The position numbers and the translations under genes were made by a program. Below, piece by piece: positions 12,598 to 58,195 of a stretch of 64,000 nt of DNA. The notes below the pieces were generated by a model. That model was given only the letters and a program-made list of their open reading frames with translations. It made no database searches and was not told the DNA's origin. Source of the stretch: a virus; IMG/VR virus record IMGVR_UViG_3300008954_000029, positions 1 to 64,000 of that record; one strand, written 5' to 3'. Positions within the stretch are counted from its first letter, which is position 1; each line of letters starts with the position of its first letter.

Positions 12598-13200
12598 CTA
12601 GGCCTCTGGTTCGTTTTCTATCTCCTCTACAAACTCATCCAAGTCTTGTAGGTCGTACAAGACATAAACTTTCTGACGGATTCCGGGGAGGGAAAGAACT
12701 CTGTTGAAGTTCTCGTTCTCCATTTCTCGCTTCATCAAAGCGACACGATCCGGTGTTCCTCTTGCGTGGTGACGGCGCTCATACTCTTCGGCGTCATCAA
12801 TGGCGCAGTGCATAAACCGAATGTCCCTTCCGTTCTGTTCGGCAAAACGATTCAATTTGCTCACGCTGGAAATGTCTGTTATGATTACCGCCTTCCCTGG
12901 TTGATGGAAGTCGTTAATGTTCGTTCCATAGTAGTGTCCGTCATAACGATTTGTATTGATCATCAGTCCGCGGTTGAATAAGTCATTGAATTCTTTTGGA
13001 GAAACAAAATGGTATTCCTTTTCCTCAAAAGTGCGCGGAGGTCGTGTCGTGAAAGACTTTATGTGACGCCAACCTTTTCCCGTGAGGTGATTCTTGTAAG
13101 TTGTCTTTCCACAACCGGTTGGGCCAAAGATGGCGATGATAGGATCTCGGCTGCGGGACTCACTCATACGGTATTTCCATTCTTCAATTAGTTTCTTCAT
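12598..13200 (-). CDS. leader-tagged guanylate-kinase-like protein
   Basis: 200 residues. Residues 1-14 (M-K-K-L-I-E-E-W-K-Y-R-M-S-E) are a variant of the shared putative capsid-targeting leader. Then comes a guanylate-kinase fold: Walker A G-P-T-G-C-G-K-T-T at about 26-34, S-F-T-T-R-P-P-R for GMP binding, and E-K-E-Y-H-F-V-S. It would phosphorylate GMP or a related nucleotide; the lid region is atypical. GAGGTGA ribosome site overlaps the end of the upstream gene. Tagging suggests it may travel in the virion. Confidence 0.75.
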   Translation of the reverse strand: MKKLIEEWKYRMSESRSRDPIIAIFGPTGCGKTTYKNHLTGKGWRHIKSFTTRPPRTFEEKEYHFVSPKEFNDLFNRGLMINTNRYDGHYYGTNINDFHQPGKAVIITDISSVSKLNRFAEQNGRDIRFMHCAIDDAEEYERRHHARGTPDRVALMKREMENENFNRVLSLPGIRQKVYVLYDLQDLDEFVEEIENEPEA

Positions 13201-13913
13201 CTGCTCACCTCTTCATCGGTATCGTCTATTATACCCTCTTTCAGGTTCTCTAGTTTAGCAATAGTTGCGTCAGTGGTGCCGTGCTTGTGAAGTATTCCTA
13301 TTCCGCCGGCTTCCTTCCAAGCATTAATCTTTTTGGGTGTGTCGTCAATAAGAATGTTCGGCTTGCCGTCCTCGTTGACCGCATACTTATGTTTGTTTCT
13401 TTCCACGATCGTGCGATGATCTTCAATTCCCAAGTTTCTATTGACCCAGGCGCGCTTGCCCTGGTGGTCTCCACCCTCGGGATCACTTCTCATAGGAGCA
13501 GTGAGGATAAAAGGAGCAGGCGTTAGTTCTTCAAGGTAGTTCCACAGGTCCAGACCGTCAGGCCTCTGCCAGCCCAGATTAGTCCAGAAGTCCAAGTTGT
13601 TTTGGAGGCGAGGATACATATAGTTGCGCACGGCCTGGATTCTAATCTCTTTGTGGAGACTGAAATCATCAGGAGTAACTTGGAATGGCTCTGACCTTCC
13701 AAGTTCTCGCAACTTCTCGATCATTTTATCGTAACGTTTTCTTTGTTCCTCGGGGACGCGGCTAGGGTCTGCTAAATCCTCATTTATTAATTTAGCAGCT
13801 CCCTCTTCGAAGCCTACGAGAACGCCGTCCAGGTCGCAATAAATCTGGAATGGGTAGATTTCTTCTTCGGATTCAGTCAAATAGGTTCTCCAATTTTCAA
13901 GTATGAGTTTCAT
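13197..13913 (-). CDS. leader-tagged HAD phosphatase / 5'-nucleotidase-like
   Basis: 238 residues. Leader M-K-L-I-L-E-N-W-R-T-Y-L-T-E (1-14) is followed by an HAD domain: nucleophile motif Y-C-D-L-D-G-V-L-V at about 25-33, motif II in I-L-T-A-P (threonine) and motif IV I-L-I-D-D-T near residue 196. The large helical cap between motifs resembles 5'(3')-deoxyribonucleotidases. It could hydrolyse nucleotides or another phosphoester. Four-base overlaps join it to both neighbours. Confidence 0.75.
   Translation of the reverse strand: MKLILENWRTYLTESEEEIYPFQIYCDLDGVLVGFEEGAAKLINEDLADPSRVPEEQRKRYDKMIEKLRELGRSEPFQVTPDDFSLHKEIRIQAVRNYMYPRLQNNLDFWTNLGWQRPDGLDLWNYLEELTPAPFILTAPMRSDPEGGDHQGKRAWVNRNLGIEDHRTIVERNKHKYAVNEDGKPNILIDDTPKKINAWKEAGGIGILHKHGTTDATIAKLENLKEGIIDDTDEEVSR
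13890..13913 (-). repeat. leader repeat, copy 1
   Basis: 24 bp encoding M-K-L-I-L-E-N-W; identical to copy 2 and two mismatches from copies 3-5. Confidence 0.8.
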
Positions 13914-14275
13914 AACTGTACCCTTTGCACTGGTACTTTTTCCACACCGAGCCTCTTTGCGGCTTCAAGTCGATGGTGGCCATCCACAACATACCAAAAG
14001 GGTTCATCTTGGCCACTCTTCGGTGTCGGTTCGTAGTCCTCCTGCCCTTGCAACTTTGCTGTAACAACGGGCTTTTGGCTGCAAACGCTTATCGGCTCAA
14101 AGTCTCCATTTTCAATCTGGTACATTTTATTTTGTACCTGCTGCTCGCACTCTTGACTAGGACAGTCGTGGTCCTTGCCGTGACCCAACTCTTCTGTTGG
14201 GATTAGTTCCTCTATCCTAACGTGGAAAACTCCTTCGTTTAAATACTTCTTCCAATTTTCAAGTATGAGTTTCAT
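13910..14275 (-). CDS. leader-tagged ParB/Srx-like protein
   Basis: 121 residues. Leader M-K-L-I-L-E-N-W-K-K-Y-L-N-E, then a single domain ending in Y-V-V-D-G-H-H-R-L-E-A-A-K-R-L-G, the hallmark D-G-x-H-R of ParB-like nuclease / sulfiredoxin / CTPase folds. A C-P-S-Q-E-C pair may bind metal. No DNA-binding domain is attached. It could act on nucleotides or phosphoproteins in the host; the activity is not predictable from sequence. Confidence 0.7.
   Translation of the reverse strand: MKLILENWKKYLNEGVFHVRIEELIPTEELGHGKDHDCPSQECEQQVQNKMYQIENGDFEPISVCSQKPVVTAKLQGQEDYEPTPKSGQDEPFWYVVDGHHRLEAAKRLGVEKVPVQRVQL
14252..14275 (-). repeat. leader repeat, copy 2
   Basis: 24 bp identical to 13890-13913. 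Confidence 0.8.
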
Positions 14276-15223
14276 TTATTCTTCGACCTCCGGCAACTCT
14301 GGTTGCCCCTCTATAGTAGAATAACCCACATCAATAATCGCAACCTGACCGTTCTTCTCCATAATGTTTGAGGTTTTCAGGTCATCAAAAGTAATTCCGT
14401 TCTCTTTCAAGAAAGTCAATGCGGAAGCGAGTTGGTGAAAGTAATCCAGTCTGGGGTCATCAAGAAACTTGTTTGCGTATTCTTCTGCTGCCTCAACCGA
14501 ATTGAAGTATTGGTTGTAGGCACCTCCCAGCAAGATCCACAGCACCTCAAACAACTTATGTTCGGCAGGACCCCAACCCATTGCGGCTGCTATTTGCTTG
14601 ATTTTAGGGCGAACATCGGCGGCTGTCTCACTTGGCTCTCCAAGTATCGCCGGATTGTTGTTGGCTGCTTCTAAAAACTGGGCCACTAATTCTTTTCCTT
14701 TTTCAAGGTTGGCGTCATCCCAGTTATAAAATAACTCTTTGTCTTTCCTGCGAATCATAAAGTAAAGCATCTCCGCAGCATCAGCCATGTTATTCGTCGG
14801 GTAGTCCAAGAATTCATAGACGATGACATAGGGGGCCGTGCGATGCGTTCCTCCGCTGTTGTCCATGTTCTCCCTGGCTCTGCGACCAGCAGCAACGATG
14901 TCATAAACATTTGGATGAGACTTTCCTACCAAGAGGGCAGCACCTTCTGTCTCGCGACGGTCGTTCGTAAATTTGAGAACCTTGTCTCCAAACCTGTACG
15001 CCTTTCCTCGCGAGCCCTGACCCAAGAAGGACGGTTCGCCTTCCAAACCTCCCCATTCCTTGATGGCTGCTAGTTCTTCCTCGGGGATCTGAATGGTGTT
15101 ATCACTCTCACCCACCTCTTTCAAGAGGTCAAGGACAAAACGTTTTCCGGTATCGGGATCAAGAGTATTGATTCTCTCATTTAAGCGGTTGTACTCTCGC
15201 CAATTTTCAAGTAGGAGTTTCAT
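14276..15223 (-). CDS. leader-tagged protein kinase-fold enzyme
   Basis: 315 residues. After the leader (M-K-L-L-L-E-N-W-R-E-Y) the kinase core is visible: glycine loop L-G-Q-G-S-R-G-K-A-Y at 67-76, candidate lysine in K-V-L-K-F (81-85), catalytic F-D-D-L-K-T-S-N at 279-286 (D281, K283, N286) and I-D-V-G at 297-300 in place of DFG. The catalytic set appears intact, so phosphotransfer is likely. T7 and other phages use kinases to reprogramme the host; a packaged copy could act at once after injection. Confidence 0.75.
   Translation of the reverse strand: MKLLLENWREYNRLNERINTLDPDTGKRFVLDLLKEVGESDNTIQIPEEELAAIKEWGGLEGEPSFLGQGSRGKAYRFGDKVLKFTNDRRETEGAALLVGKSHPNVYDIVAAGRRARENMDNSGGTHRTAPYVIVYEFLDYPTNNMADAAEMLYFMIRRKDKELFYNWDDANLEKGKELVAQFLEAANNNPAILGEPSETAADVRPKIKQIAAAMGWGPAEHKLFEVLWILLGGAYNQYFNSVEAAEEYANKFLDDPRLDYFHQLASALTFLKENGITFDDLKTSNIMEKNGQVAIIDVGYSTIEGQPELPEVEE
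15200..15223 (-). repeat. leader repeat, copy 3
   Basis: 24 bp coding M-K-L-L-L-E-N-W, identical to copies 4 and 5. Confidence 0.8.
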
Positions 15224-15663
15224 TGTGGAACTTCCTCGACAACACCCCTCAACATAATGCCCGACAAGGGCTCGAAGTTTTCCTCCGGTATCTTGTTGGA
15301 ATGGAAGGGCTTACCTCCCCCTTCGCGATTGACGGCAACAGTAACGTGCGGAAAGGAAATCTTCTTACTGATTTCGCTTGGGGCCTCAACCTTTACAGCC
15401 ATAGCTCTCTCATCTTGCCCGACAGCCACAACGGGCAGTTCCACCTCTGAACCCGCAGGATAAGTCTGTGAGAAGTCGTGCTTACCTTTCTTGTGTACCA
15501 AAGATCCTAATGTGATAGTCATGTGGTGAGCAACGGGTTCCCACCCTTCTGGAATTGGAAGGCTCAAAAGCGCTTCCTTCGAGGCGTCGTCCAAAACTAT
15601 TCCAGAGTACGCTATGTTCTGTTCTGTTAAGAACTCTCGCCAATTTTCAAGTAGGAGTTTCAT
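15220..15663 (-). CDS. leader-tagged 2H phosphoesterase
   Basis: 147 residues. Leader M-K-L-L-L-E-N-W-R-E-F-L-T-E (1-14). Two HxT motifs, H47-M-T49 (in H-H-M-T-I-T-L) and H106-V-T108 (in F-P-H-V-T-V-A-V), spaced about 60 residues apart, define the 2H phosphoesterase family (LigT, T4 Acb1). These enzymes open or cleave 2',3' or 3',5' cyclic phosphodiesters. In T4 a 2H enzyme (Acb1) destroys CBASS signal nucleotides, so a packaged anti-defence role is attractive but untested; RNA-end processing is the alternative. Confidence 0.78.
   Translation of the reverse strand: MKLLLENWREFLTEQNIAYSGIVLDDASKEALLSLPIPEGWEPVAHHMTITLGSLVHKKGKHDFSQTYPAGSEVELPVVAVGQDERAMAVKVEAPSEISKKISFPHVTVAVNREGGGKPFHSNKIPEENFEPLSGIMLRGVVEEVPQ
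15640..15663 (-). repeat. leader repeat, copy 4
   Basis: 24 bp identical to copies 3 and 5. Confidence 0.8.
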
Positions 15664-16169
15664 TTACTTATTACACCCCCATGTTTCTCATAAAATTCTA
15701 AATCCTCTGGGGTTGCTTCCCTGACTAGATGTGAGTAATCATCTACATTCACCTCTTCGACGTCACACACTTGCGCATCAACCTCTGAAACCCATTCCGG
15801 TTTATCTCTCGGCACGCCAGTATTTCTAAAGGTATCTTTTGGCAATTTGTACAAAAAAACCTTCTCCCCATGACGTATCTTCCCTTTAACAACTACTAAT
15901 TGAAGTGGCTTTGCGCTAACGTTGGTGAAAACATCAGGCCACGACCCATCGGAATCTCTTCCCACTAAACCAGCCATAATTGCCTGATTCCTGTCCTCAG
16001 TTGCGTATACTGCTTTAAGGTTTTGTTCTGGAGCGCCGCCGATATCCTCGGCTTGTCGAGCTTGCACTGGACCTTCAAATTTTACAGCAGAGCCATGCCA
16101 CACGAACTCGTCGCAAGGTTTCTTCTCTTCATTCAAATACTTTCGCCAATTTTCAAGTAGGAGTTTCAT
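15660..16169 (-). CDS. leader-tagged ADP-ribosyltransferase-like protein
   Basis: 169 residues. Leader M-K-L-L-L-E-N-W-R-K-Y-L-N-E. Then F-V-W-H-G-S (about 22-27) and A-V-Y-A-T-E-D-R-N-Q-A-I (about 53-64) recall the H and Y motifs of the ART fold, which binds NAD. A clear third Glu motif is not identified; E-E-V-N-V near 137 is a candidate. T4 packages the ADP-ribosyltransferase Alt with a leader of the same kind, which makes the comparison apt. Fold assignment is tentative. Confidence 0.5.
   Translation of the reverse strand: MKLLLENWRKYLNEEKKPCDEFVWHGSAVKFEGPVQARQAEDIGGAPEQNLKAVYATEDRNQAIMAGLVGRDSDGSWPDVFTNVSAKPLQLVVVKGKIRHGEKVFLYKLPKDTFRNTGVPRDKPEWVSEVDAQVCDVEEVNVDDYSHLVREATPEDLEFYEKHGGVISK
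16146..16169 (-). repeat. leader repeat, copy 5
   Basis: 24 bp identical to copies 3 and 4. Confidence 0.8.
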
Positions 16170-17074
16170 ATATCAATCACCACAAATTCATCTGGGCTTT
16201 CTATGCTCATTCCGAGATTACCAGGATGAACGTCTTGGAGGACGTGCGTTGTCCTGAGACGCACAGCGAGTCTGGTAAGTGTTTTAATCAAATTCATTGT
16301 TAGGTCGGGAGTGAGTACGCCCATCTCCATATCAAGTATATCTTCTTCTTCCGCAAAAGGCAAGCTCTTTCTGTTGCGCCACCAGTGTTGAACCAGTTCC
16401 ACTTTCTCATCCACGCTCCGATTGGGGTCCTTTAAGAGAGCCCCGTGATAAAGTGCGGCCTCCACAAACTGCGCCAGTTGGTGAATGTCAAAGTCAAGAC
16501 GCATCAAATCAAACTCGGGCAGTTTTCCCAGGCTGTGCGGGGCAGCATCAGACAACGGTATAATTCCACTCATTTCAACGTATTTTAGGTCACGGCCTGA
16601 TTGATCAGGGAAAGGAACTTCCCCATAGTCGTGAATTGCCGGCTCGTCCGTTGAGGACTCTCCCTTAAACTGTCTGTCTTGAATACCAGCATACCAATCT
16701 AGATCATCATACTCTCCACCGCCGTATCCACTCCGAAATAGACTAAAAATGTGATCGTTGTCCAGCCGGTAGGCAATCTTCTTGGTGCCGCTCCCGATGA
16801 CTTTAAGAATCTTATTTGTCCGCAGAGGCGGTATACTTCCCACTAATTGAATCAATTCTTCCTCGTCAAGATCCCAAAGAGCGAACTTCTCCATCGCGTC
16901 AGGACCTTGCGTCGTGGGGGTAATCTTTAACATTTTCCGATTGTGATGAACGATCGGGTCATCAGCGAGCGGAACTTGTTCCGTCTCTCTTTCTCCGTCA
17001 TCACCAAGGTCGGGATCGTCGTCAAGGACGCGCTCATTCAAATACTTCCGCCAATTTTCGAATAGAAGTTTCAT
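16166..17074 (-). CDS. leader-tagged kinase-like protein, ends at the DFG position
   Basis: 302 residues. Leader M-K-L-L-F-E-N-W-R-K-Y-L-N-E followed by an acidic stretch. V-I-G-S-G-T-K-K-I-A-Y-R-L resembles a kinase glycine loop, and L-Q-D-V-H-P-G-N-L-G near residue 283 is the catalytic loop of APH/ABC1-type kinases. The protein stops directly after F-V-V-I-D-I, i.e. at the metal-binding Asp, so the activation segment and C-lobe end are missing. Either a minimal APH-like kinase or a pseudokinase. Confidence 0.65.
   Translation of the reverse strand: MKLLFENWRKYLNERVLDDDPDLGDDGERETEQVPLADDPIVHHNRKMLKITPTTQGPDAMEKFALWDLDEEELIQLVGSIPPLRTNKILKVIGSGTKKIAYRLDNDHIFSLFRSGYGGGEYDDLDWYAGIQDRQFKGESSTDEPAIHDYGEVPFPDQSGRDLKYVEMSGIIPLSDAAPHSLGKLPEFDLMRLDFDIHQLAQFVEAALYHGALLKDPNRSVDEKVELVQHWWRNRKSLPFAEEEDILDMEMGVLTPDLTMNLIKTLTRLAVRLRTTHVLQDVHPGNLGMSIESPDEFVVIDI
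17051..17074 (-). repeat. leader repeat, copy 6 (diverged)
   Basis: 24 bp coding M-K-L-L-F-E-N-W with a few changes from copies 3-5. Confidence 0.7.
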
Positions 17075-17077
17075 ATC

Positions 17078-17506
17078 TTATAAATAGTTTCTTCTCTTCG
17101 TTTCATCCCGGTAATACTTCTCGGTGCCGTAGTACTTAACGCGTGTCCCAAACAGCCAATCAGCGAAGGGAAGTAGAACTCCCCAGTTAGCCTCCTTCGG
17201 TCCTAGATGGTGGTCATAATGCCACGGAAGCCAACACTTGGCCCACTCCACATCCATATGTGATTTGGTGTGAGCCCAGTAATATAATAACATATATGTG
17301 TATAATGTCAAGACAAAAGTTGGAGAAACATAAAAGAGAGGAGCGTGCGAGAGAATGAGGACGATACCAACAAAGATTTCTTTTCCGTAGAAGTTACCAT
17401 CTTTATAAGTGTTATCGTGCCCTCGGGATTTTGTTACGCGTTTGTGATGATCGTGGAAATGAAAAGACCAATAAGATCCCTTATTCTTGCCAAGCGTGTG
17501 TAACAA
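17078..17506 (-). CDS. fatty acid hydroxylase / sterol desaturase family protein
   Basis: 142 residues from TTG 17506. His clusters H-F-H-D-H-H, H-T-K-S-H and H-Y-D-H-H fit the di-iron motif set of the membrane fatty acid hydroxylase superfamily, with two hydrophobic segments between them. The frame stays open upstream to 17590 and encodes another hydrophobic helix (V-V-V-V-V-L-G-A-I-A-Y-A) behind a perfect AGGAGG. At the ideal spacing the codon is GTA (17579-17581), not a normal start. The true protein is probably about 25 residues longer. It may modify host lipids or carotenoids. Confidence 0.72.
   Translation of the reverse strand: MLHTLGKNKGSYWSFHFHDHHKRVTKSRGHDNTYKDGNFYGKEIFVGIVLILSHAPLFYVSPTFVLTLYTYMLLYYWAHTKSHMDVEWAKCWLPWHYDHHLGPKEANWGVLLPFADWLFGTRVKYYGTEKYYRDETKRRNYL
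17079..17088 (-). promoter_or_regulatory. ACTATTTATA motif
   Basis: Minus-strand ACTATTTATA overlapping the stop of the hydroxylase gene and ending four bases before ATG 17074. Too close for a conventional leader containing a ribosome site. Confidence 0.4.
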
Positions 17507-17577
17507 GAACTTATGAATAAATACTTCGGCGATGTTTGCGTATGCTATCGCCCCTAAAACAACAACTACTACCCCAC

Positions 17578-17922
17578 TTACTTTTTTCCTCCTTTCTTCG
17601 GTCCTCCGTTACTGGGAAGAACCTTTTCTACCCTGAGGCCGTAAAGGCCCGTATTGGGAACAATTAATTTTCTGTCTGTTTCTAATAAATGAAAAACTGT
17701 TTTGGTGGGAGTCTGGCGGACGATTCTTGCTTTCTTTACTCCTCCGATATAAACTATGTCATCGGGGTTAAAATCACTCCCAATCATAAACAATGTGCCA
17801 GCAAGAACGTTGGCCACCAAATCCTTAACCAAAAGAGAAACGAAGGCAGCAACAAAGAACCACCCGTAGTTGCCAAAGAGAGTAACAAGTAGTGATTCTA
17901 TTTCTTTAATGTCCAGAAACAT
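17578..17922 (-). CDS. truncated MscS-like channel domain
   Basis: 114 residues. One hydrophobic helix, then V-K-D-L-V-A-N-V-L-A-G-T-L-F-M-I-G, the pore-helix-to-beta transition of MscS channels, and D-D-I-V-Y-I-G-G-V of the beta domain. T-K-T-V-F-H and I-V-P-N-T-G-L-Y match the next strands. Only TM3 and the beta domain are present; MscS is normally about 280 residues. It might interfere with host osmotic channels by mixed assembly. AGGAGG at its 3' end serves the downstream gene. Confidence 0.7.
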   Translation of the reverse strand: MFLDIKEIESLLVTLFGNYGWFFVAAFVSLLVKDLVANVLAGTLFMIGSDFNPDDIVYIGGVKKARIVRQTPTKTVFHLLETDRKLIVPNTGLYGLRVEKVLPSNGGPKKGGKK

Positions 17923-17928
17923 ATAAGG

Positions 17929-19527
17929 TTATTCCCCCGAACCATCCGCCACATGCCCCAGGCCAAAGGGCGGCGGGCGACGAGGTGGTCTGCTAACCAG
18001 TGGCGCGCCGGTGTGGTCTTTGCCTGCTTTGGCCAGCTCTATCCAATTCTTGAAGGTTTCTTTGTATTCGTCAAGCATAGCATTCATCTGTCGGTACTTT
18101 CCACTCATAACTTCACGGGCAGAAGCTTGACCTACCTCTATCCCCCTCTTCAATACTGGTGACATTCCGTAGTTGCGAAACTTATCATCTATTTTTTCTT
18201 TTACCTCGCGAAAGTAATCGTGCGCCGGGTGGCGATTGGCGTCGCGATGCGGAAGAAGATCCTTCCATTCAAAATAAGCCTCTCTCATTTCGTGCCCAAT
18301 GTGTGCAAGGTAGCGATGAACGAGGTATTCTATTATGAGTACCTCGCCCTCGCCCTTCAACAATTCAAGTGTTTTGGCGAAATCAGTTTCTTCATTTCCA
18401 GGATTAAACATCCAGTCATCACCTTTGAGGCCCACAAAAGTTATCAAACCATCAATAAAGTCCTGAGTCACTCGTAATTGTGGATGTGTAGGGTCTGGGC
18501 TGATGTCTGCGACCAACTCCCGAACCAACTCTCGCATTTCTCGCGCACCGCCGATCTTGGCGCGCCTCTTAATCTTTTCTGGTGTGTGGGTGTTGGGAAG
18601 GACCTCCACTAATTCTAAATTTCGCTCGGGATCAGCCATGGTAAAGAAGACGGCTTGCAGGGGCTCGTTAGGGTGAATAAAACCTACGCCGGCGTCGTCC
18701 ACAACACCGGCAATGCCCAGCTTACGCATTATGGCGTTCCAGCGCATCGGGTCTTCTTGAGCAGCATTGCGCGCCAGACCCCACAAATGGGCTGCCTTGC
18801 TCTCCTCGGGTGGGAAAGGCAGCGCGGTGCCCATGTGAAACTTGAGATACCGGTTGGTAGCATCTTCGGATCTCGTCACGGCAGTGTCGCCCGGGCCAGT
18901 CGAGGTGGAGGGGTCCCTTGCCAGGCGCAACCAGTCAAGCGGGGGATCATAAGGTTGGCCCGTCGATGGGGCCCATCCGCGGCGCAGCGCGCGCGCGCGG
19001 CGGGCATACCTTGTTTTCCTTTCGGAATCCATCATTTCGTCTGAAAGGAGTGCTTCGACGTACTCATCGTACTCATCCAGCGGAATGTCCTCGGCGGTAT
19101 AGATTACGGGCACACCTTCCGCTACCTTAAACAACATAATAAAAGGCTGGCCCTGGGCAAATGGGAGAGTGCCGTCAAGAAACTGATCAAAAATAGTTTG
19201 ATTGAGGGGATAAGAATAAATTCCGATCGGAGTACTGAATCGTGTGGTTGGGTTTACTCCAAACTTAAATTGGGGGCCTTGTTTGGATCGGTCCCACTCG
19301 CGCTCTGCTTCAATCTTCCCAAAGTGAATGAAGTGAGTGGGCTTTTCGCCAGTAGGAACAACGTACTGACGTAGAACGTCGTCCGTTCCTCCCATTTCGC
19401 CAGATTCTAGGCGGTAGGGGCCTTTCGCCCCTAACTTGCCCAACTCTGTCTTCCAACGGGTGGCCATTTCGTCCATTCGCGACTCTTTTACAAGCCTTCG
19501 CCACTTTGCTTCGTTATGTCTCTTCAT
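17929..19527 (-). CDS. large leader-tagged protein, possible ART-like fold
   Basis: 532 residues from ATG 19527 (M-K-R-H-N-E-A-K-W-R-R-L-V-K-E-S), a diverged form of the leader with W-R-R and an (V)-x-E end. A segment H-F-I-H-F-G, later F-S-T-P-I-G-I-Y-S-Y-P-L, and H-P-N-E-P-L-Q-A-V-F-F could be the H, Y and E/Q motifs of an ADP-ribosyltransferase fold. The C-terminus is proline-rich (P-P-R-R-P-P-P). No confident family. The chosen ATG overlaps the end of the 48-residue gene upstream; the longer frame would not have a ribosome site. Confidence 0.6.
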   Translation of the reverse strand: MKRHNEAKWRRLVKESRMDEMATRWKTELGKLGAKGPYRLESGEMGGTDDVLRQYVVPTGEKPTHFIHFGKIEAEREWDRSKQGPQFKFGVNPTTRFSTPIGIYSYPLNQTIFDQFLDGTLPFAQGQPFIMLFKVAEGVPVIYTAEDIPLDEYDEYVEALLSDEMMDSERKTRYARRARALRRGWAPSTGQPYDPPLDWLRLARDPSTSTGPGDTAVTRSEDATNRYLKFHMGTALPFPPEESKAAHLWGLARNAAQEDPMRWNAIMRKLGIAGVVDDAGVGFIHPNEPLQAVFFTMADPERNLELVEVLPNTHTPEKIKRRAKIGGAREMRELVRELVADISPDPTHPQLRVTQDFIDGLITFVGLKGDDWMFNPGNEETDFAKTLELLKGEGEVLIIEYLVHRYLAHIGHEMREAYFEWKDLLPHRDANRHPAHDYFREVKEKIDDKFRNYGMSPVLKRGIEVGQASAREVMSGKYRQMNAMLDEYKETFKNWIELAKAGKDHTGAPLVSRPPRRPPPFGLGHVADGSGE

Positions 19528-19660
19528 TCCTCTTATTTTCCTCAACCATCTTATCTATTAACTTCTGTTTAACTATTTTCTTGTGTTCCTCGTCCAAACC
19601 TTCTCGCATTTCTCTGAAATTTCGCCATGCCTCGTTAAACGTAAGACGCTCCCTGTCCAT
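19514..19660 (-). CDS. 48-aa helical protein with leader-like start
   Basis: A short ORF (M-D-R-E-R-L-T-F-N-E-A-W-R-N-F-R-E-M at the start, then a charged helix ending N-K-R-N-E-E-T). The A-W-R-N-F-R-E-M part resembles the leader tags but lacks M-K-L. It overlaps the next gene by 14 bases. An ACTATTTA motif lies upstream at 19713. Confidence 0.5.
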   Translation of the reverse strand: MDRERLTFNEAWRNFREMREGLDEEHKKIVKQKLIDKMVEENKRNEET

Positions 19661-22134: not shown

Positions 22135-22503
22135 TTAGGCAACTCTCCGCACTCGGCCCACCACCTTCAACACCCGGATGCCCTTAATGTTGTTCACTGC
22201 GGGACGCAGGATCTTGCTGACGTAGGAGCGAGGAGAAATGCGTACGCTTTGCATACAACAAAACTTAACCCGGATAGTATCATAATAGTTGCTGGCGTCT
22301 TCGGTACCAGACCCCGGCAAGTATGAAACAACAGTCACCCCGGGGATGGAACGGATCTCTCCAATGGTTTCATACTTGTCGCCGCCGATGTCCTTGTTCT
22401 TCTTGATTCGGATGTGTGTCTCAAAGGATTGATACTCGTACCCTGATTTGGGGTCCTTCAACTCAAAAAGAAACTCTTTCCATTTTTGTGTGTAATCGCT
22501 CAT
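22135..22503 (-). CDS. conserved phage protein with leader-like start
   Basis: 122 residues opening M-S-D-Y-T-Q-K-W-K-E-F-L-F-E, which matches the leader pattern (W-K-E-F-L-x-E). The rest is alpha/beta with I-R-S-I-P-G-V-T-V-V and I-R-V-K-F-C strands, like a ferredoxin-fold domain. GTAGGAA ribosome site. Function unknown. Confidence 0.62.
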   Translation of the reverse strand: MSDYTQKWKEFLFELKDPKSGYEYQSFETHIRIKKNKDIGGDKYETIGEIRSIPGVTVVSYLPGSGTEDASNYYDTIRVKFCCMQSVRISPRSYVSKILRPAVNNIKGIRVLKVVGRVRRVA

Positions 22504-23269: not shown

Positions 23270-25483
23270 CTATCGGCAAACGTCGCTAAATATATCGTCT
23301 AAATATCCCCTTATTGTACCTGAACTTATCCCGCTGTATAATCCGTAACACGCTTGCGCTATGTTGGCCGGGGCGCACCACTGCGTGTACGTCCCTTGCG
23401 GCACTATGGCATAAACTTCCAGAGTATCTGCGGCCTCGCAACTCCCAACCGTACAGGGGGTTAGTGCGGCGCGTACATCGGCAGCCATCAGGCGCGGGTC
23501 CCTCAATGATTGCGCGTGCTCGTCTGACATCACAACAACCATCGGCCACGCATCGTCCCTGAAGCTCAAACCAATACTGTTCGTGGCGATGGATTCCACG
23601 GCATCATACTGTGGCTCCTCGTTCCAGAAATCACAAGTCAAAGTATTCAAGGCATTGGCGAAGGCTAGTGAGTCAACGAAATCAATGTGTATGTCTGGTG
23701 TGATTACTGGCTGGCGACCGGGGATGTTTACCAAGGCAAAGCGATGGGGCGTGTTTGCGAACTCCAGCACGTAGGGTCGGATCGCGTCTCGGAGAGCACG
23801 AATCTTACCGCACATTGATCCACTACGGTCAATGGCGAAAATCATGTCAACCGTGTCGTGCGCGTCCAAATCCTCATCTATGTCGCCGTCGCAGTCGTCG
23901 TCGAGATTGTTACAGGTTTCGTCCTCCGGGAGGACTTGTCCAGCACAATAGCCATCTACAAAAACACCATCCAATTCCCCACCCCAGCGTCCCATACTAC
24001 ACGTAGCTTGGCCGGCTGCGCACTCCCCAACATCCTCGGTACCAGGGGGCCCCGTGTAGCAGCGTGCGAGAAGGCCTTCATCTATCTCTTCGTCGCAATC
24101 ATCGTCCCAAGCGTTACAGTCCTCTTCCTGAGGTGCACCACCAGTAACGTCGCACGCCGGATCTCGCGGCTGCTCAAAGGCGCACATAGCCATACACTCG
24201 GTGAATGCTGTGCGGCTACACTCATCATCAACACAGACACACTCCATAAAACCAGAGCCGCACGTTAACATAGGGTTATTCTGACACGGCAACAGCATCC
24301 CCAAGAACTCGGGAGGGCACGTGCACTCCAACCCCTCATCCACAGATCCGTCGCAGTCGTTGTCTTCGGAATCGCAAATCTCTTCCTGAGGCAGCGGGGC
24401 GGAGCACCCTCCCCACCAGCCGACTCGGCAGGTCTCAAAGCCTGAGCCACACTCATTCTCGCAAGGTCGTAGTAGACCCTCGTCAATGGTTCCGTCGCAG
24501 TCGTTGTCGCGACCGTCGCACTGTTCCACCTCTGGGGGTGTATCGCCAATACACATTAAGTCTTGCCCGTTACAAGAGAGAGAACCGTAAGTACAACTTC
24601 CCACATCGGTAAGTCCACATTGGGTACCAGCACCCTGTGGGTTATCATCAACTTGTCCGTCGCAATCATTATCAACGGAATCACAAACTTCCTGAGACGG
24701 TAGCACCTCGTTCATACACCCCGACCAGGCACCATCGGCGCATAGTTCAATTCCTGTTCTACAAGGTGTGTCGGAAGTTTCCGGACTGTTAAACACAAGC
24801 CAGTCTTGTGGGGTACCATCGCGGTCTGAGGGGCCTGACCAACACATCCTCTTCAGTCCCTCGTCCGTGTGGCCATCGCAGTTGTTGTCGAGGCCATCGC
24901 ACAATTCTGTGGCCGGCCCTTGTGCGCCTAGGCAAGCACCCGACACCCACTCATCGTCTTCAGTACCCCCAATACGGTCGTGACCGTCCAGCCACGATCC
25001 CCATTCAGAACCACCCCGGGGAAGTGGTCGGCAAACCTGATCGCCATAAACGCATTGTCCAAGGAGGGCGCCGGTCCGATTTGAGTGGTCCTCAATAGTT
25101 CCTAGTTCTCTACCCTCTTCATCCAGCCAGCACTTTCTTTTGCTTGTAGTAGCCCAGTCAACCGAATACTCCTTCCCCGCGGGCCAGCACTCGCACCCCT
25201 CGTCCACGCCATCGTCCCCGTATCCGCACGGGGTACCGTCCCCATTGGAATCTTGTTCTTCGAAAGGTTTGGAAATACAATCGCAATCATTGTCGAGTCC
25301 ATCACAAAGCTCAGGAATCTCGGGGTCTGCCTCTGCGCTGGTGTTTTCTAGACTACAAGTAGTGTCGGGTGGGAAGGAGTCGGTGGATGTGCCGCCGAGT
25401 AGGTTAAGATCTTCGCACGAACATCCGCTTATGATTGTTAAAGTTAGTAGTAGTGGTAGGCCCTTTAATAATCTATATAACAT
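23270..25483 (-). CDS. lipoprotein with MopE-type repeats and vWA domain
   Basis: 737 residues. Lipobox I-S-G-C at 18-21. The first 530 residues contain about eight C-D-G-x-D-N-D-C-D-G-x-x-D-E type repeats, a putative metal-binding motif frequent in Myxococcota surface proteins. From about 540 a von Willebrand A domain begins (F-A-I-D-R-S-G-S-M, the DxSxS MIDAS motif). Rich in Cys, so likely disulfide-bonded outside the cell. Probably host-derived; it may act in adhesion, surface remodelling or as a decoy receptor. Confidence 0.8.
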   Translation of the reverse strand: MLYRLLKGLPLLLTLTIISGCSCEDLNLLGGTSTDSFPPDTTCSLENTSAEADPEIPELCDGLDNDCDCISKPFEEQDSNGDGTPCGYGDDGVDEGCECWPAGKEYSVDWATTSKRKCWLDEEGRELGTIEDHSNRTGALLGQCVYGDQVCRPLPRGGSEWGSWLDGHDRIGGTEDDEWVSGACLGAQGPATELCDGLDNNCDGHTDEGLKRMCWSGPSDRDGTPQDWLVFNSPETSDTPCRTGIELCADGAWSGCMNEVLPSQEVCDSVDNDCDGQVDDNPQGAGTQCGLTDVGSCTYGSLSCNGQDLMCIGDTPPEVEQCDGRDNDCDGTIDEGLLRPCENECGSGFETCRVGWWGGCSAPLPQEEICDSEDNDCDGSVDEGLECTCPPEFLGMLLPCQNNPMLTCGSGFMECVCVDDECSRTAFTECMAMCAFEQPRDPACDVTGGAPQEEDCNAWDDDCDEEIDEGLLARCYTGPPGTEDVGECAAGQATCSMGRWGGELDGVFVDGYCAGQVLPEDETCNNLDDDCDGDIDEDLDAHDTVDMIFAIDRSGSMCGKIRALRDAIRPYVLEFANTPHRFALVNIPGRQPVITPDIHIDFVDSLAFANALNTLTCDFWNEEPQYDAVESIATNSIGLSFRDDAWPMVVVMSDEHAQSLRDPRLMAADVRAALTPCTVGSCEAADTLEVYAIVPQGTYTQWCAPANIAQACYGLYSGISSGTIRGYLDDIFSDVCR

Positions 25484-28436: not shown

Positions 28437-30845
28437 TCACCCTCCTTCACTAAAGACTTCCCTCATCAGAGCCTCAGCCTTTTCCTTATAAGTATCGTGC
28501 TGTGCCTCATAAGAGGGATTTAATAGTTTGTGGATCTCCTGAATCTGTCGCTCTTGAACATCGGCTACGCCCAACTGGTATTGTGGATCGGACAATTCTG
28601 GATAGTCAATGTTGTTGAGAGCTTTTGTGATCGTAACTTGCAGAAGTTGCTGTATCTTGTTAAAGACCTCTTGTTGATCAAGATACTTGGCGAAGTTCAT
28701 AACGATTTGTGCGTCTTCCTCGGTGGCCTTGAAACCTTCTTGGTGCTCCATGTCCATAATCAGATCAATTGTTATGTACCATTTGGGCACTACATACTTC
28801 TTTCCGCCCTCTTCCTCAACGTGCGCACCTCGGAAGCCGGCTGAATCGGCGCGGGGAAGCACTAGCACACTCACATTATCGTCGCGGCCAAACCCCAATT
28901 CCTCTGCGGCCTTTTGCCAGGTCTCTTCTTCCCGTTTCTCAGCAGCCTCCTCATCACCGCCAAAGGGAAGTTCCATCTGCCTAGTGAGGTCGTCCAAGGT
29001 TTGGCTCAAAGTATCTTCAAGAACGCCAACAACACGATCACCGATCAACTTCTTTGTATGACCGTGGCGCTCCAAGAAGGTGAAGACGTCGCTCAGAACT
29101 GCTTGTGGATTGGGTGCGTCAAGTATCCACTGGGGGATTTCAATACGGGGACGCAGTTGGGCGGAAAAAGAGACTTCTTCGTTATCGTATTCAACTTCAA
29201 AGTTGTCTAACTCAAGATCTTCAAATACCTTTACATACTTCTGTACGTCCGGGGACCAGATCGCACCGTGCTCAACGAAAGCATTCCTCAATGCCTTTTC
29301 GTCTCGCATTATGTCTTCCAGCTTCCGATCATAGTCGGCCATCCTGTCCAGGAAGTTTTCGTAACCTTCTAGGCCTGAGGCCTCCCTGTAATCGTCGGGC
29401 CTAAACTCAATTCGCACGGCCTCGTCGTACCTATCCCACTCTGCCCCATCGACATAGATCCCTTCTTCATCGAGAATCTTCTCAATCGCCGTGACGAACT
29501 TTTCTTCGTCTAAAACACTCTCCTCTGCCACATCCGGTTCAAAGCTCCACCCACCTTCCCAGCTCGAATAGCCTTCGTCGAGGTGGTGCTGGACCCACAA
29601 ATGGGCGAAATCATACTCGCGCAGCTTTCTATTAAAGTCTTCCGGGTCGGGCCCGCCGGGGTTGTCCTGGTGGTGTTGTGCCGTTAAACCTATGATGTCG
29701 CCGGATTGTTCGTCCACCAGTTCTTCGACCAGAGACGCCAACTCAGTGAGGTCGTCCAAACTTATCTCTGTTAGATCAAGCCCATAACCTTCGGCCCACA
29801 ATCTCCAAAACTCGATGCCGCCTTGACCCTCACTCAGACCCTCTAATGCCTCTTGGGCGAAGTCGTATCCCGCGTCTTCGGCAAACTGCTCAGGATTTTT
29901 CTTTTTGAGCTTTTTATAAGAGTCTATACCATTCAGTCCCTTGTAAAAGACGTTAAGCCTGGCGGCATTATGGATGCCGCCGGAGCCAATCTCATCGTCA
30001 GCGCGATCCCAAACTGTGTCTGGCTCTCCATAACTGTTGGGGTCGTAGACCAGGGCCAACTTCCTATCATCAAAATCTTGCGGAATGTGTTTGAAGGTGA
30101 CGAAATAAAACGCGGCGCCCTTATCCCGATAGTCGTTAAAGTGATTATAAGCTTCGGTGTATGCGATACACCACTTCGTTCCTTGGCCGAAATAACAAGC
30201 AGCCTCTTCGCTCTCTGGGCGTAGAATTCCATAGTCATCGGTGTCCTCTATGTATTCTGTGGTGCTTCTGGCCTCTTCACGCATACGCTCCATCTGATCA
30301 CGCCTGGTCTCTTCCCGTTCGGCCTCGTATACTGCGGTCTGTATTTCATAGGTATCTTCAAATTCATCAATAGATTTCTTAATCAGGCCTCGTTCCGAGT
30401 ATTTGTGGAATTTCGGAAGGGCCCGGACAAGGCGATCGCCGTGTTCTCTTATGTAGCGCCCAAGAGAAGTAGCGTCCTCTGTATCAAGCAACTCGTTGCC
30501 GGCTTCAAGCGTTGCCTGGGCTTTGGCACTTAGGCGTGGAGAGAGATGTCTGAAAGTCTCTTTTGTCCAGTCTTTAAGATACTTCGCGAACCAAGGAAGG
30601 TATTTATTTTTACCACTAGGATCAGCCTCCGACGCCGCTTTAAGCGCCGATGTGACGGCGTCGGTCACAATTTCCAACGCCTCTGGCTTAATGTGAGGCA
30701 TAACGTCTCTGTCGATAATCTTCTTCCAGTTCGTAGCAGAAGCCACCGCATCAGTGTAGCGACTCTCAATTAATAATTGTTCGTCAATAGTGATAGGGTT
30801 GGCCGAAAAAGAACGCCAACTATCAAAGACACTTTTCATTCCCAT
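28437..30845 (-). CDS. large hypothetical phage protein with leader-like start
   Basis: 802 residues, opening M-G-M-K-S-V-F-D-S-W-R-S-F-S, a weak version of the leader. Residues about 200-260 hold G-Q-G-T-K-W-C-I-A followed by F-Y-F-V-T-F-K, a motif I have seen in other large marine-phage proteins without known function. The remainder is acidic and mostly helical. Could be a virion or injected protein. ATG 30845 or 30839 are both possible. Confidence 0.6.
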   Translation of the reverse strand: MGMKSVFDSWRSFSANPITIDEQLLIESRYTDAVASATNWKKIIDRDVMPHIKPEALEIVTDAVTSALKAASEADPSGKNKYLPWFAKYLKDWTKETFRHLSPRLSAKAQATLEAGNELLDTEDATSLGRYIREHGDRLVRALPKFHKYSERGLIKKSIDEFEDTYEIQTAVYEAEREETRRDQMERMREEARSTTEYIEDTDDYGILRPESEEAACYFGQGTKWCIAYTEAYNHFNDYRDKGAAFYFVTFKHIPQDFDDRKLALVYDPNSYGEPDTVWDRADDEIGSGGIHNAARLNVFYKGLNGIDSYKKLKKKNPEQFAEDAGYDFAQEALEGLSEGQGGIEFWRLWAEGYGLDLTEISLDDLTELASLVEELVDEQSGDIIGLTAQHHQDNPGGPDPEDFNRKLREYDFAHLWVQHHLDEGYSSWEGGWSFEPDVAEESVLDEEKFVTAIEKILDEEGIYVDGAEWDRYDEAVRIEFRPDDYREASGLEGYENFLDRMADYDRKLEDIMRDEKALRNAFVEHGAIWSPDVQKYVKVFEDLELDNFEVEYDNEEVSFSAQLRPRIEIPQWILDAPNPQAVLSDVFTFLERHGHTKKLIGDRVVGVLEDTLSQTLDDLTRQMELPFGGDEEAAEKREEETWQKAAEELGFGRDDNVSVLVLPRADSAGFRGAHVEEEGGKKYVVPKWYITIDLIMDMEHQEGFKATEEDAQIVMNFAKYLDQQEVFNKIQQLLQVTITKALNNIDYPELSDPQYQLGVADVQERQIQEIHKLLNPSYEAQHDTYKEKAEALMREVFSEGG

Positions 30846-34807: not shown

Positions 34808-36400
34808 TTATATTTCTTTGACGCCCTTTTCTGGGTCGGTAATCAAATCATTCAACTCTTCGGAGGCTCGCACCGCAGTCTGCCCATAAGCAAACCGATT
34901 GCCTCCTTGCGGGGTAAGGTAGTAGCCCGTGATCCCCTGGGTGAGCGTGTCTAGGGCTGCGAAAATCGAGACAACAGTATCTTTTAATGAATCGGTGTAT
35001 TCCTCAGCCAGCCTTAGGGCGTTCTCTCTATCAATCTGTAAATAACCGAGTCTCACCTTCTTATACACATCGGGCAGAGCTTTCTTGAGGACATCGCTTG
35101 AGTTTATCTCAAACTGCGACACTTTGGATTCTGTTAGCAAATCTTCTGAGGTCGGATTAGTGGACTCCATTCTGATGCCGCGGCGGGCGGCCAACTGCCG
35201 GCCCCACTCCCGAGGATCCTCCGCATACAACTCTCTGAAGTATTCGATGTCCTGTGTGGCTGTATCACTCACCTCTGCTTCGCTCTCACCCCTGAAATCT
35301 CCCAACTCATGGTCCGCTGGGAAATCCATAGTCTTGAAGAACTTTCTCCGCCTTGCGACGACGGCGCCCAACTCATCCAGAGACATTTCGTTCATCTGCT
35401 GGTCTGTCAGATCAAACTCCGCAGGGGCCTTGTACCCGAAATCCTGTGCTGCCTTCTTAATCATTCGCACACCCTTCTTGGCCTCAGCGGATAGCAGCTT
35501 CGCCAACATCTTTGGACCTATGCGCTGTTGAAAGGCTATGGCCGCTTTAACAAATTCTCGGGCGGCGGCCTGCTTTTTCATGATCTTTTCTACCTTGCTT
35601 CCAGCTATGTCTCGGCGGTGCGTCAAGCGAGGATCGGCGGCTTCCGACAATTGAATCTGAAAGTCCAACTCGTTGGCCAGCCAATAATAAATGTTTTCTG
35701 GGTCGATAATGAAAGAATAAAAAGAAACCCCTTTTGTATCGTCTTTTCCGAATTTATACACACAAAGATACTCGATGCCTTCCCGACCATCCGGACCAGA
35801 AAGGAACCCAATTAAGTTCTTGATACTGCCCTTTACAGGTGTTGTCGGTACAAGCAGTTTAAGTGAGATGGGCTTCCCCTCGGCATCCCTCAAATCGTCA
35901 ATCTGAAGCTCGCCGTCAGCCTTTTCTACCTGCTGTGTTCCCCTAAGCAGTCCCGCAAGAAACGCTTCAAACAAGAAGCCGGCGCCGGAGGGGGAGAAGT
36001 TATTAACAACTGTCGACAAGAGATCCAAAAACATCAAGTTAGAAAGGATCTCGTGTGTTTCGTACTTTTCCGGGCGAACCCTTTCAGTGAAAAGGTTGAG
36101 GTATCTCAGCTTATCCTCAATGGTCGACCCAGGGATGTTGTTCATGTAAGCTTCGAACTGTTGGCGGGCATCTGTGTCCTTTTGCCCCCAGGCTTCACTT
36201 ATCTCAAACTTTGGCAGCATGTCCAAGAACGACTTAGACATGTCCTCTATTTTGGTCGACATGGTTGACTGTGCGTGAGCGGCGTCCTCGCTCATGGCCT
36301 GCTCAACCATTTCTAGGAGCGTGGCCATGTTAAGGAGAGTCTTCTTTCTTGGCTTGAAATATTCTTCTACAAGAAGATCGAGGTCTTTGCTACTTTCCAT
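34808..36400 (-). CDS. putative PD-(D/E)xK nuclease-like phage protein
   Basis: 530 residues. G-A-G-F-L-F-E-A-F-L-A-G-L-L at about 150-163, then D-L-R-D and P-I-S-L-K-L-L with K-G-S-I-K-N-L, spaced as in restriction-like nuclease cores (E, D, x-L-K). Similar segments occur in large proteins of marine T4-like phages. The N-terminal 25 residues (L-V-E-E-Y-F-K-P-R-K-K-T-L-L) might be a leader of a different type. Function uncertain. Confidence 0.5.
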   Translation of the reverse strand: MESSKDLDLLVEEYFKPRKKTLLNMATLLEMVEQAMSEDAAHAQSTMSTKIEDMSKSFLDMLPKFEISEAWGQKDTDARQQFEAYMNNIPGSTIEDKLRYLNLFTERVRPEKYETHEILSNLMFLDLLSTVVNNFSPSGAGFLFEAFLAGLLRGTQQVEKADGELQIDDLRDAEGKPISLKLLVPTTPVKGSIKNLIGFLSGPDGREGIEYLCVYKFGKDDTKGVSFYSFIIDPENIYYWLANELDFQIQLSEAADPRLTHRRDIAGSKVEKIMKKQAAAREFVKAAIAFQQRIGPKMLAKLLSAEAKKGVRMIKKAAQDFGYKAPAEFDLTDQQMNEMSLDELGAVVARRRKFFKTMDFPADHELGDFRGESEAEVSDTATQDIEYFRELYAEDPREWGRQLAARRGIRMESTNPTSEDLLTESKVSQFEINSSDVLKKALPDVYKKVRLGYLQIDRENALRLAEEYTDSLKDTVVSIFAALDTLTQGITGYYLTPQGGNRFAYGQTAVRASEELNDLITDPEKGVKEI

Positions 36401-38751: not shown

Positions 38752-39288
38752 TTACTTTTTTGCTTCGCGGACAAGACGGGCAGCGACGCGACGAGTCAGT
38801 TCCTCGACGAGATCTGCGGGGATCTGGCGACCTTCCTCTAGGTCGTCGTCCTCTTGCTTGGCGGCATAATCGCCCTCTTCCAACTCGTCGGCCCCTTCGA
38901 GAGGCTCAACATCAGAGCCAAGCTCAGCCTCAAGTTCGGCGCCGGCGTCCATTGGAACTTCCTCGGCGGGGGGCTCGCCGCCCTCAACACTGACATCTAC
39001 GCCAGTCACATCACCGATAGCATCGGCAATGGCGCCGACGAGCGCCTCGACGGTCTCAGGATCTACATCAACAGCAGGACCCTCGACTTCCAGGGGAGCA
39101 ACGTCACCGGTGGCTTCGAGATCGTCGACTTCCGGGGCTTCATCAGCGAGAGCCGCTAGGGGGTCAACCTCTTCCTCTTCTTCATCCAGAGTATCAACAA
39201 AATTCTCCGTGAGGTTATCCAGGGTAGCGAGCTTCATAAAGCGTCGAACGGTGCCCTCGGAAAGTAGTGGTGATTTGCGGCTGCTCAT
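38752..39288 (-). CDS. highly acidic protein, prohead-core-like
   Basis: 178 residues. It opens with S-E-G-T-V-R-R-F-M-K-L-A-T-L-D-N-L-T-E, a motif seen at the start of structural proteins of marine myoviruses, followed by a 120-residue acidic low-complexity middle (E-E-E-E-E-V-D, E-V-D-D-L-E-A) and a basic amphipathic helix at the end (V-E-E-L-T-R-R-V-A-A-R-L-V). This is the style of scaffold or prohead core proteins. Tentative. Confidence 0.55.
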   Translation of the reverse strand: MSSRKSPLLSEGTVRRFMKLATLDNLTENFVDTLDEEEEEVDPLAALADEAPEVDDLEATGDVAPLEVEGPAVDVDPETVEALVGAIADAIGDVTGVDVSVEGGEPPAEEVPMDAGAELEAELGSDVEPLEGADELEEGDYAAKQEDDDLEEGRQIPADLVEELTRRVAARLVREAKK

Positions 39289-41628: not shown

Positions 41629-42329
41629 TACAATGTTCTCCTATGAAGGTCCAAAAACAAATCTTTTTGTTGTGTTTCTACAATCTGCGCAGCAATCTCA
41701 TTTACTGCGTCCTTTCTTGCCTCGGTCGTTCCTCGGTCAGCATCCCACGGAACGTGAATGGTGTGTACCCCTTGTCCAGTTAGCACACCAACCATGTGAT
41801 TAATTTCTCGATCTAACTCTCGCAAGTAATTGATGTCAATAACATTCTCACACTTGCGGCCGGTCTGCGACTCCATCCTGCGACGGATCCTCTCCGCTGC
41901 GACCTCTGGGCTCACCACGAGACGCACACATACGCTAGGTAGCAGGACGCTCGCAGTCATAGCGTGATAGATACTACGGTAAGTCTCAAACTCATTCTCA
42001 CTCATCGCACCAGTCTTGACTTGTAGGCGCGCAAACGAGGTATCGCCAAAGTAACTTCGGTCAAGAACGGCGTGACCTTGTTTGTTCATCGCATACCACT
42101 GAGCCTGTAAGTGCATCATATAGCGTGCTTGAAGCAAATGAACTTGCATTGTGAACGCCCACCTCTCCTGGTTCTGATAGAAGGAGGCGAGGTAAGGATT
42201 AGCATTGTCCTTCTCATCCGGCTCCATCAGGGTGAGGGTGTTTTCGCCAAGAGCCTCACCAAGTTCCCTCGAAAGAGAACTCTTGCCGGCCCCAATCAAA
42301 CCTTCTACGATTACTACCTTGTTGTTCAT
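41628..42329 (-). CDS. deoxynucleoside kinase
   Basis: 233 residues. P-loop G-L-I-G-A-G-K-S-S at 10-18, E-P-D-E-K-D after strand 2, and the D-R-S-Y-F-G-D-T-S-F-A motif (about 92-102) typical of deoxyribonucleoside kinases. R-I-R-R-R-M forms the lid. Substrate preference cannot be read. Works with NrdJ and ThyX in dNTP supply. Abuts dut. Confidence 0.85.
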   Translation of the reverse strand: MNNKVVIVEGLIGAGKSSLSRELGEALGENTLTLMEPDEKDNANPYLASFYQNQERWAFTMQVHLLQARYMMHLQAQWYAMNKQGHAVLDRSYFGDTSFARLQVKTGAMSENEFETYRSIYHAMTASVLLPSVCVRLVVSPEVAAERIRRRMESQTGRKCENVIDINYLRELDREINHMVGVLTGQGVHTIHVPWDADRGTTEARKDAVNEIAAQIVETQQKDLFLDLHRRTL

Positions 42330-57505: not shown

Positions 57506-58195
57506 TTAGTCTGAATTCTTCTTTAGTTTTGTAAGAAAGGAGTTGAGTACTCCTCTGTGGTGCCAGTAATACTTCGGCGTCTTGTTTTCAACTTGTAACT
57601 TTTCTTCGCGAATGCGAATCTCCCTTACGAGAGCATCTTCTTCGTTGATGTCACCGTTGATAACTGGCTGGTTGGACTCTTCAACGATTTCGTAATCTTC
57701 GTCGAAGAAGGGGATGATGAACTTGCGGCCAGAGGAGTGCCTCTCCTGAGAGTAGAAGTCTTCACGGTCCTGGACGTCAGAACCAACAAGAGCAACGTCC
57801 CTTTCCTGGACCACCTTGTAACCTTCAATGTACTGAAAGCGCATTGATTCATCATCCCTCTTGATCCCCCAGATTACAGACTCTTGTCCGAAGTCCTTGC
57901 CAAGGTTCATAATCTCGGACTTTGTGATGTTGGGAACAAGAAAAGAGTTTTCAAGATTGCCGAACTTTCCCTTGATCCTGATGTAGCCCAGATTCCTCTC
58001 GCGCAGACGTTCTTGGAGAAGCTTGTTACGCTCTTGATTCTCTTGTGGATTCAGTTGGTTGCCGTCAGGGTTCTCTGCGGTGATGAATCCAACTGTATGG
58101 ACGTTAGGGACGGAGCCCATGAGCATGTTGGCGATGCGAGGAAACCCCGACTCTGTAATCAAGGTCTTTCGCCAACTTTCCATAATTTCTCTCAT
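57506..58195 (-). CDS. leader-tagged DUF3293-like protein
   Basis: 229 residues from ATG 58195, nine bases after AGGA. The leader M-R-E-I-M-E-S-W-R-K-T-L-I-T-E ends in (L)-I-T-E as expected for prohead-protease cleavage. The following F-I-T-A-E-N-P ... L-G-Y-I-R-I-K-G ... E-N-S-F-L-V and F-G-Q-E-S-V-I-W resemble DUF3293. A separate C-terminal region is acidic. It is far from the main leader-tagged cluster, showing the tag is used genome-wide. Confidence 0.65.
   Translation of the reverse strand: MREIMESWRKTLITESGFPRIANMLMGSVPNVHTVGFITAENPDGNQLNPQENQERNKLLQERLRERNLGYIRIKGKFGNLENSFLVPNITKSEIMNLGKDFGQESVIWGIKRDDESMRFQYIEGYKVVQERDVALVGSDVQDREDFYSQERHSSGRKFIIPFFDEDYEIVEESNQPVINGDINEEDALVREIRIREEKLQVENKTPKYYWHHRGVLNSFLTKLKKNSD

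Follow-up and report, generated by a model that had tools for sequence, protein, structure and literature searches.

Genes at the locus

The stretch of DNA analysed here (the window) comprises the first 64,000 bases of a viral record of 84,662 bases, IMG/VR IMGVR_UViG_3300008954_000029, and contains an array of seven adjacent minus-strand open reading frames (ORFs), at 12598-17074, all of which open with the same short leader, M-K-(L/K)-L/I-x-E-N-W-R-x-Y/F-L-x-E or a close variant (hereafter type 1). Most of them are joined by four-base overlaps (ATGA), and their products, of 121-315 residues, each have at most one recognised domain:

12598..13200, minus strand: guanylate-kinase-like P-loop protein, leader MKKLIEEWKYRMSE at 13159-13200
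13197..13913, minus strand: HAD 5'-deoxyribonucleotidase-like protein, leader MKLILENWRTYLTE at 13872-13913
13910..14275, minus strand: ParB-like (weak) protein, leader MKLILENWKKYLNE at 14234-14275
14276..15223, minus strand: protein-kinase-like protein, leader MKLLLENWREYNRLNE at 15176-15223, with a two-residue insertion and LxE retained
15220..15663, minus strand: 2H phosphoesterase-like protein with HMT and HVT motifs, leader MKLLLENWREFLTE at 15622-15663
15660..16169, minus strand: protein without family assignment, leader MKLLLENWRKYLNE at 16128-16169
16166..17074, minus strand: kinase-fold protein, leader MKLLFENWRKYLNE at 17033-17074

The initial annotation had drawn this array as far as 19660, but the ORF at 17929-19545 has no convincing leader. 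A 13-position scoring matrix derived from these same seven leaders gave them scores of 29.3-42.9, against maxima of 4.5 (first set) and 5.8 (18,037 starts) for start codons in reversed sequence. Since the matrix was made from the leaders that it scored, the informative comparisons are the reversed control and the independent relatives described below. Past the leader, no alignment was found between the seven proteins (tail scores were negative), in agreement with the original proposal of a leader common to unrelated proteins. A chance origin of the leader was ruled out by the reversed-sequence and internal-methionine controls.

The domains first proposed for these proteins fared unequally. Those of the guanylate kinase at 12598 (PF00625, 4.7e-11; phrog_1815, 9e-26) and of the HAD deoxyribonucleotidase at 13197 (phrog_2643, 2.6e-19), homologues of which exist both with and without the leader, were confirmed. 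Support was also obtained for two kinase folds, at 14276 by a protein kinase match (6.2e-7) slightly under the Pfam cut-off, and at 16166 by G-loop and DxHxxN/D motifs, with Foldseek matches to APH and protein kinases that we regard as supportive given the low confidence of the model (49). For the ParB-like protein at 13910 there is a weak phrog match (9e-5), and for the 2H protein at 15220 a weak profile (0.009), yet accompanied by two HxT motifs and homologues. The ART-like assignment of the protein at 15660 was not sustained: profile search gave no family match, no homologues were found and the single-sequence model was uninformative (predicted local distance difference test, pLDDT, 33).

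The leader in other viruses

A search for relatives with one of the proteins retrieved 18 viral loci, mostly rich in leader genes, and a DNA pattern for M-K-L-x-x-E-N-W gave at least 120 matches in the viral collection, with a leader ORF present in 113 of 120 loci among the matches listed. At least 222 non-redundant leader proteins were found in this way in uncultured T4-type phages, and the carriers, T4-like viruses that infect bacteria, are uncultured and for the most part marine. The array of a single phage reaches 13-14 type-1 genes in the relative G010, at 72-86 kb and on the same strand as gp21 (65 kb).

Most of the 193 leader proteins compared with Pfam matched no family. The families recovered comprised NUDIX (6), GNAT (at least 4), HAD/NT5C, 2H/LigT, nucleotidyltransferase and poly(A) polymerase, together with exonuclease, kinase, zeta toxin-like, M23 peptidase and others. 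Matches obtained with PADLOC were few and scattered.

A conserved protein of 530 residues is encoded at 34808-36400 of the window, with homologues in G010 and in a further relative, G007; another homologue, at L132:3093-4019, bears a type-1 leader.

Relationship with the capsid-targeting sequence of T4

In phage T4, a capsid-targeting sequence (CTS) is carried by the internal proteins (IPs) IPI, IPII and IPIII and by Alt (Mullaney and Black 1996; PMC9026906), and truncation and suppressor work assigned targeting to its residues 4 and 7 and processing to residues 8 and 10 (PMC9026906). In the T4 record, IPII and IPIII start with MKTYQEFIAE and IPI with MKTFKEFTSTTTPVSTITE (MKTFKEF...ITE). The three proteins have an aromatic-x-x-aromatic in common with the leader, directly followed by (L/I)-x-E in IPII and IPIII, and W8, Y/F11, L12 and E14 of the leader sit in the same register as the residues of the T4 CTS, W8 being conserved in 221/222 leaders and Y/F11 in 210/222. 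The resemblance to MKTYQEFIAE noted initially stands for the W-x-x-Y/F-L-x-E half of the leader and fails for its MKLLLEN half.

A general motif, M-x(2-6)-aromatic-xx-aromatic-(L/I/V/M)-x-E, retrieves exactly IPII and IPIII from two stretches of T4, and among the relatives it matches 77 of 8194 starts (about half of which are internal MENW starts of known leaders) versus 11 of 13,366 internal methionines. In this line, orthologues with diverged N-termini retain just W-x-x-(F/Y)-(L/I)-x-E, as in the series MYTWKKFIEE, MKYNWNKFITE, MNRKWITFLDE and MKIKNWQKFIRE. The second and third of these are found in NUDIX homologues, along with MSINKWNSYLTE and MKFKQWNQYLTE, while homologues of the nucleotidyltransferase of window ORF 21082 start with the first, with MDFIKSWKSFLEE or with MKLLFENWKKYITE. 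Such a series sets a minimal motif and offers a hint of how the leader and the T4 CTS are connected.

The same orthologues bear on the idea of the leader as a DNA-level cassette for recombination or duplication, or as a translation-start element for gene shuffling, the peptide itself having a slight function. Synonymous codons of the leaders within one locus do differ less than under random choice (0.39 vs 0.55), and 209 of the 222 starts form the ATGA that permits a stop-start overlap. However, third codon positions are the most variable ones (0.39 vs 0.25 and 0.16), the upstream DNA is unconserved apart from a purine-rich ribosome-binding region, and it is at the protein level that diverged orthologues keep W-x-x-F/Y-L-x-E alone; we consider this origin highly improbable.

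Three N-termini elsewhere in the window had been listed as distant forms of the leader, and they hold on different grounds:

22135..22503, minus strand: protein of 122 residues, divergent leader MSDYTQKWKEFLFE at 22462-22503
28437..30839, minus strand: protein of 800 residues, homologue of canonical-leader proteins, divergent leader MKSVFDSWRSFSANPITIDE at 30780-30839
57506..58195, minus strand: DUF3293 protein, divergent leader MREIMESWRKTLITE at 58151-58195

The first has W8, F11, L12 and E14 in exact register and is the only non-canonical N-terminus of the window matched by the general motif. In the second, IDE stands where the canonical-leader homologues have LKE or LNE, before QLLIE(G/S)R, and the matrix score of the third (8.9) exceeds all controls.

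The end of the leader

The T4 protease gp21 cleaves after L/I-x-E (PMC9026906), a consensus with which the leaders had been said to end. To leave this end unselected, leaders were defined from residues 2-11 alone. Under this definition, (L/I/V/M)-x-E with its Glu at positions 12-23 occurs in 94.6% of the leaders, versus 20-23% for control stretches located further along in these proteins. Moreover, the motif is kept when the spacing shifts, as 39 of the 50 leaders without Glu14 retain it (YNRLNE, YINLLNE, FALLTE or HIIIKE, for example), where 9.1 were expected and 18 was the maximum in 2000 draws. In canonical leaders with Glu14, residue P3 is L, I, V or M in 177/178, V and M occurring besides L and I.

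N-terminal propeptides cut after Glu are likewise present on internal head proteins of another phage lineage, the ejection proteins of the giant phages SPN3US/phiKZ (PMC5694885), and the SPN3US paralogues gp53 and gp54 have 15 identical N-terminal residues in common (PMC5694885). Most of those propeptides, however, span ~80-127 residues, and their specificity (A-x-E or S/A/G-x-E) differs from the P3 preference of the leader.

A second leader type

A blind search for repeated N-termini uncovered a second leader, MKITKxQLKQIIKEEL (type 2), on 94 non-redundant unrelated proteins, with none in the reversed control. This leader has I-x-E at residues 12-14, the same place as in type 1, and type-1 leaders co-occur in 35 of the 45 loci with type 2, where genes of both types are interspersed (L169:11351-13657, L151:12829-18194, and loci L116, L001, L002 and L018). 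Relatives of the 16166 kinase carry type 1 in L040, L004 and L003 and type 2 in L001 and L002, short leaders also occurring, and cross-type matches between homologues amount to 39 when both directions are counted, including kinases and other families. Unrelated leaders with a common LxE position on interchangeable proteins would be hard to explain without processing at that point.

Outside the viral collection, a stricter DNA pattern had two matches only in 257 Gb of cellular genomes. One of them is a contig with several leader genes of both types, which is most probably a piece of phage DNA assigned to a metagenome-assembled genome; the second was dismissed as chance. Among 50,697 named phage records, tblastn with the type-1 leader returned distant Microviridae only and with the type-2 leader no match, such short queries missing diverged forms.

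Flavobacterium phage immuto, a cultured relative, shows repeated N-termini of its own, namely MENFDLKKFLVENKLT, MKKQILSEQFRRMQKLAGIITES and MKKSQLRxIIxxxL, which head different proteins (L289:1803, L289:25470 and L291:4836, 5762, 13631, 15144, 19587 and 20588). Some of these N-termini also contain LxE, and the phage could serve as a test system.

Head genes of the leader phages

The remainder of the viral record encodes T4-type tail genes (sheath, tube and hub), UvsX and a single-strand DNA-binding protein, and genes resembling neck genes lie at its end. A second contig of the same species (two compared genes are 100% identical in protein) runs on into gp23 and gp22. The search for a gp21-like protease was negative in the 84.7-kb record, which stops before the head genes, so that truncation would account for the negative and the phage is not proven to lack the gene; of 16 leader-bearing records, 5 encode the protease (PF03420), among them each of the three longer than 100 kb. 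Overall, T4 gp21 has a match in 44 loci, some of them overlapping copies, and all 35 aligned sequences have H85 and S140 (T4 numbering), which we take to be the catalytic residues. As to gp23, LL(R/K)E lies 14-15 residues ahead of a VAFP(I/L)VRR motif in 56 of 59 proteins, that of the window's own species included, at the propeptide boundary before the mature domain, and resembles LTE65/AE of T4.

Of the 44 gp21 loci, 18 have a leader gene in the interval from gp20 to gp21 or immediately adjacent to gp21, where T4 has its core genes 67, 68 and 22. Leader proteins could be components of the prohead scaffold or core that are degraded or expelled afterwards, with no delivery to the host, just as gp67, gp68 and much of gp22 of T4 are cut by gp21 and largely exit the head (PMC9026906), and some leader proteins do occupy the gp67/gp68 position. 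Many of them, however, match intact enzyme families (NUDIX, GNAT, HAD, 2H and kinases), the class expected of injected effectors (PMC5512222) and not of scaffolds, which renders this role unlikely.

Location also matters for another alternative, in which the leader would be an uncut amphipathic helix that sends proteins elsewhere (to the membrane, a replication factory or a shared partner protein), with LxE as part of a docking surface. Low-confidence models predict a helix with a hydrophobic face, and the frequently acidic residue P1' would suit such a role. Nevertheless, a fixed docking surface would not need LxE to be retained at shifted positions, the type-2 leader has only the LxE position in common with type 1, and leader genes are found in the gp20-gp21 interval; we hold this alternative to be quite improbable. 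Both it and a role confined to the core fit the context less well than targeting to the capsid.

A conserved protein at 38752-39288 of the window contains a motif, (S/N)E-x-x-x-RRFMKLA, also present at L183:1550-2662, L166:3298-3891 and L150:3853-4404. It resembles RMQKLAGI, located C-terminally in the gp22 scaffold of the same species, and may be a further core-binding motif.

A proposed capsid-targeting propeptide

Altogether, we propose that the N-terminal 14-20 residues constitute a modular capsid-targeting propeptide that would work like the CTS of the T4 internal proteins, a reading to which we assign a probability of roughly 0.8. At the sequence level it is supported by LxE regardless of spacing, the aromatic register, the presence of gp21 in relatives, the placement in the head module, the LxE of gp23 and the second LxE-ending leader. 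Like the leader, the T4 CTS is short, N-terminal and found on unrelated proteins, with aromatic-x-x-aromatic-(L/I)-x-E; T4 has the gp21-type protease and gp23 shell of the leader phages' group, and the spacing is variable in both, as IPI illustrates. The leader, known here from its sequence alone, differs from it in that sequence (MKLLLENWRKYLNE, for instance), and the leader phages differ from T4, with its few CTS genes, in carrying up to ~14 genes each, many with recognisable enzymes as cargo, and in holding a second leader type.

Several observations weigh against this interpretation. The exact MKTYQEFIAE is not present, and the W/Y-x-x-F/Y-L/I-x-E pattern alone is in common; P1' is E or D in 62 of 178 leaders, versus A/S in gp23 and the T4 IPs; LxE is missing from ~5% of leaders; and no gp21 was found in the truncated record. 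Moreover, the cultured phages nearest by gp23, namely Flavobacterium phage immuto (first 148 of 160 kb), Microcystis phage Mel-JY01 and RM378 (part), lack the leader.

From these data we infer packaging, core docking, cleavage, retention, injection and a counter-defence function. Late in infection, the translationally coupled leader genes would be expressed, and an amphipathic helix with W8 and Y/F11 would dock each enzyme onto the prohead scaffold core, where a gp21-type protease would cleave after (L/I/V/M)-x-E and release the intact enzyme within the head. Injected along with the DNA, the enzymes would then reach the next host and work there on nucleotides, RNA or proteins ahead of phage transcription, host defences being the probable target. 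The behaviour assumed as a model is that of T4, in which a type IV restriction enzyme is blocked by IPI, and IPIII lacking its CTS is still functional if produced in the cytoplasm of the host (PMC9391042). A repertoire overlapping with this cargo (ParB-like, kinase and GNAT) and predicted to be injected was described for the polyvalent proteins of phages and conjugative elements (Iyer et al. 2017, PMC5512222), which are, however, single multidomain polypeptides, whereas the leader cargo consists mostly of separate single-domain proteins.

In a broader sense, a large T4-type clade from the environment probably relies on two or more head-targeting tags, interchangeable and unrelated in sequence, as a general platform for delivery. 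If so, any enzyme gene would become virion cargo on gaining a 14-residue leader, and a device known from two or three T4 proteins would widen into a whole arsenal. Proteins injected with the DNA are known for few phages and normally cannot be read from a genome; the tags would allow the injected effectors of uncultured phages to be read from sequence, making hundreds of anonymous genes of marine T4-like phages predicted effectors, probably counter-defence enzymes, with NUDIX, 2H, HAD, GNAT and kinase families recurring. They would also provide new small tags to load proteins into phage heads. Keyword searches of the literature gave chiefly studies of T4, P1 and SPN3US, and the leader strings occur in no open-access paper, subscription literature lying outside the search. 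The principle of a CTS was already known; what seems undescribed is its scale here, along with the leader sequence, the cargo of enzymes and a second leader interchangeable with the first.

Other features of the window

At 23270-25483 lies a lipoprotein-like ORF, with numerous CDGxDNDCDG repeats and a vWA-like end; a different ORF, at 60432-61301, has thrombospondin-type DxDxDGxGD repeats. Repeats of both kinds are reminiscent of Myxococcota-like bacteria, a possible clue to the host. Finally, as read by eye, DNA polymerase III alpha is split at 42326-47041: the upstream part ends like the N-half of an intein, the ORF at 42326-43318 encodes the downstream part and starts like an intein C-half, and a possible endonuclease ORF (43296-44303) lies between the halves, an arrangement that looks like a split-intein DnaE broken by a homing-type gene.

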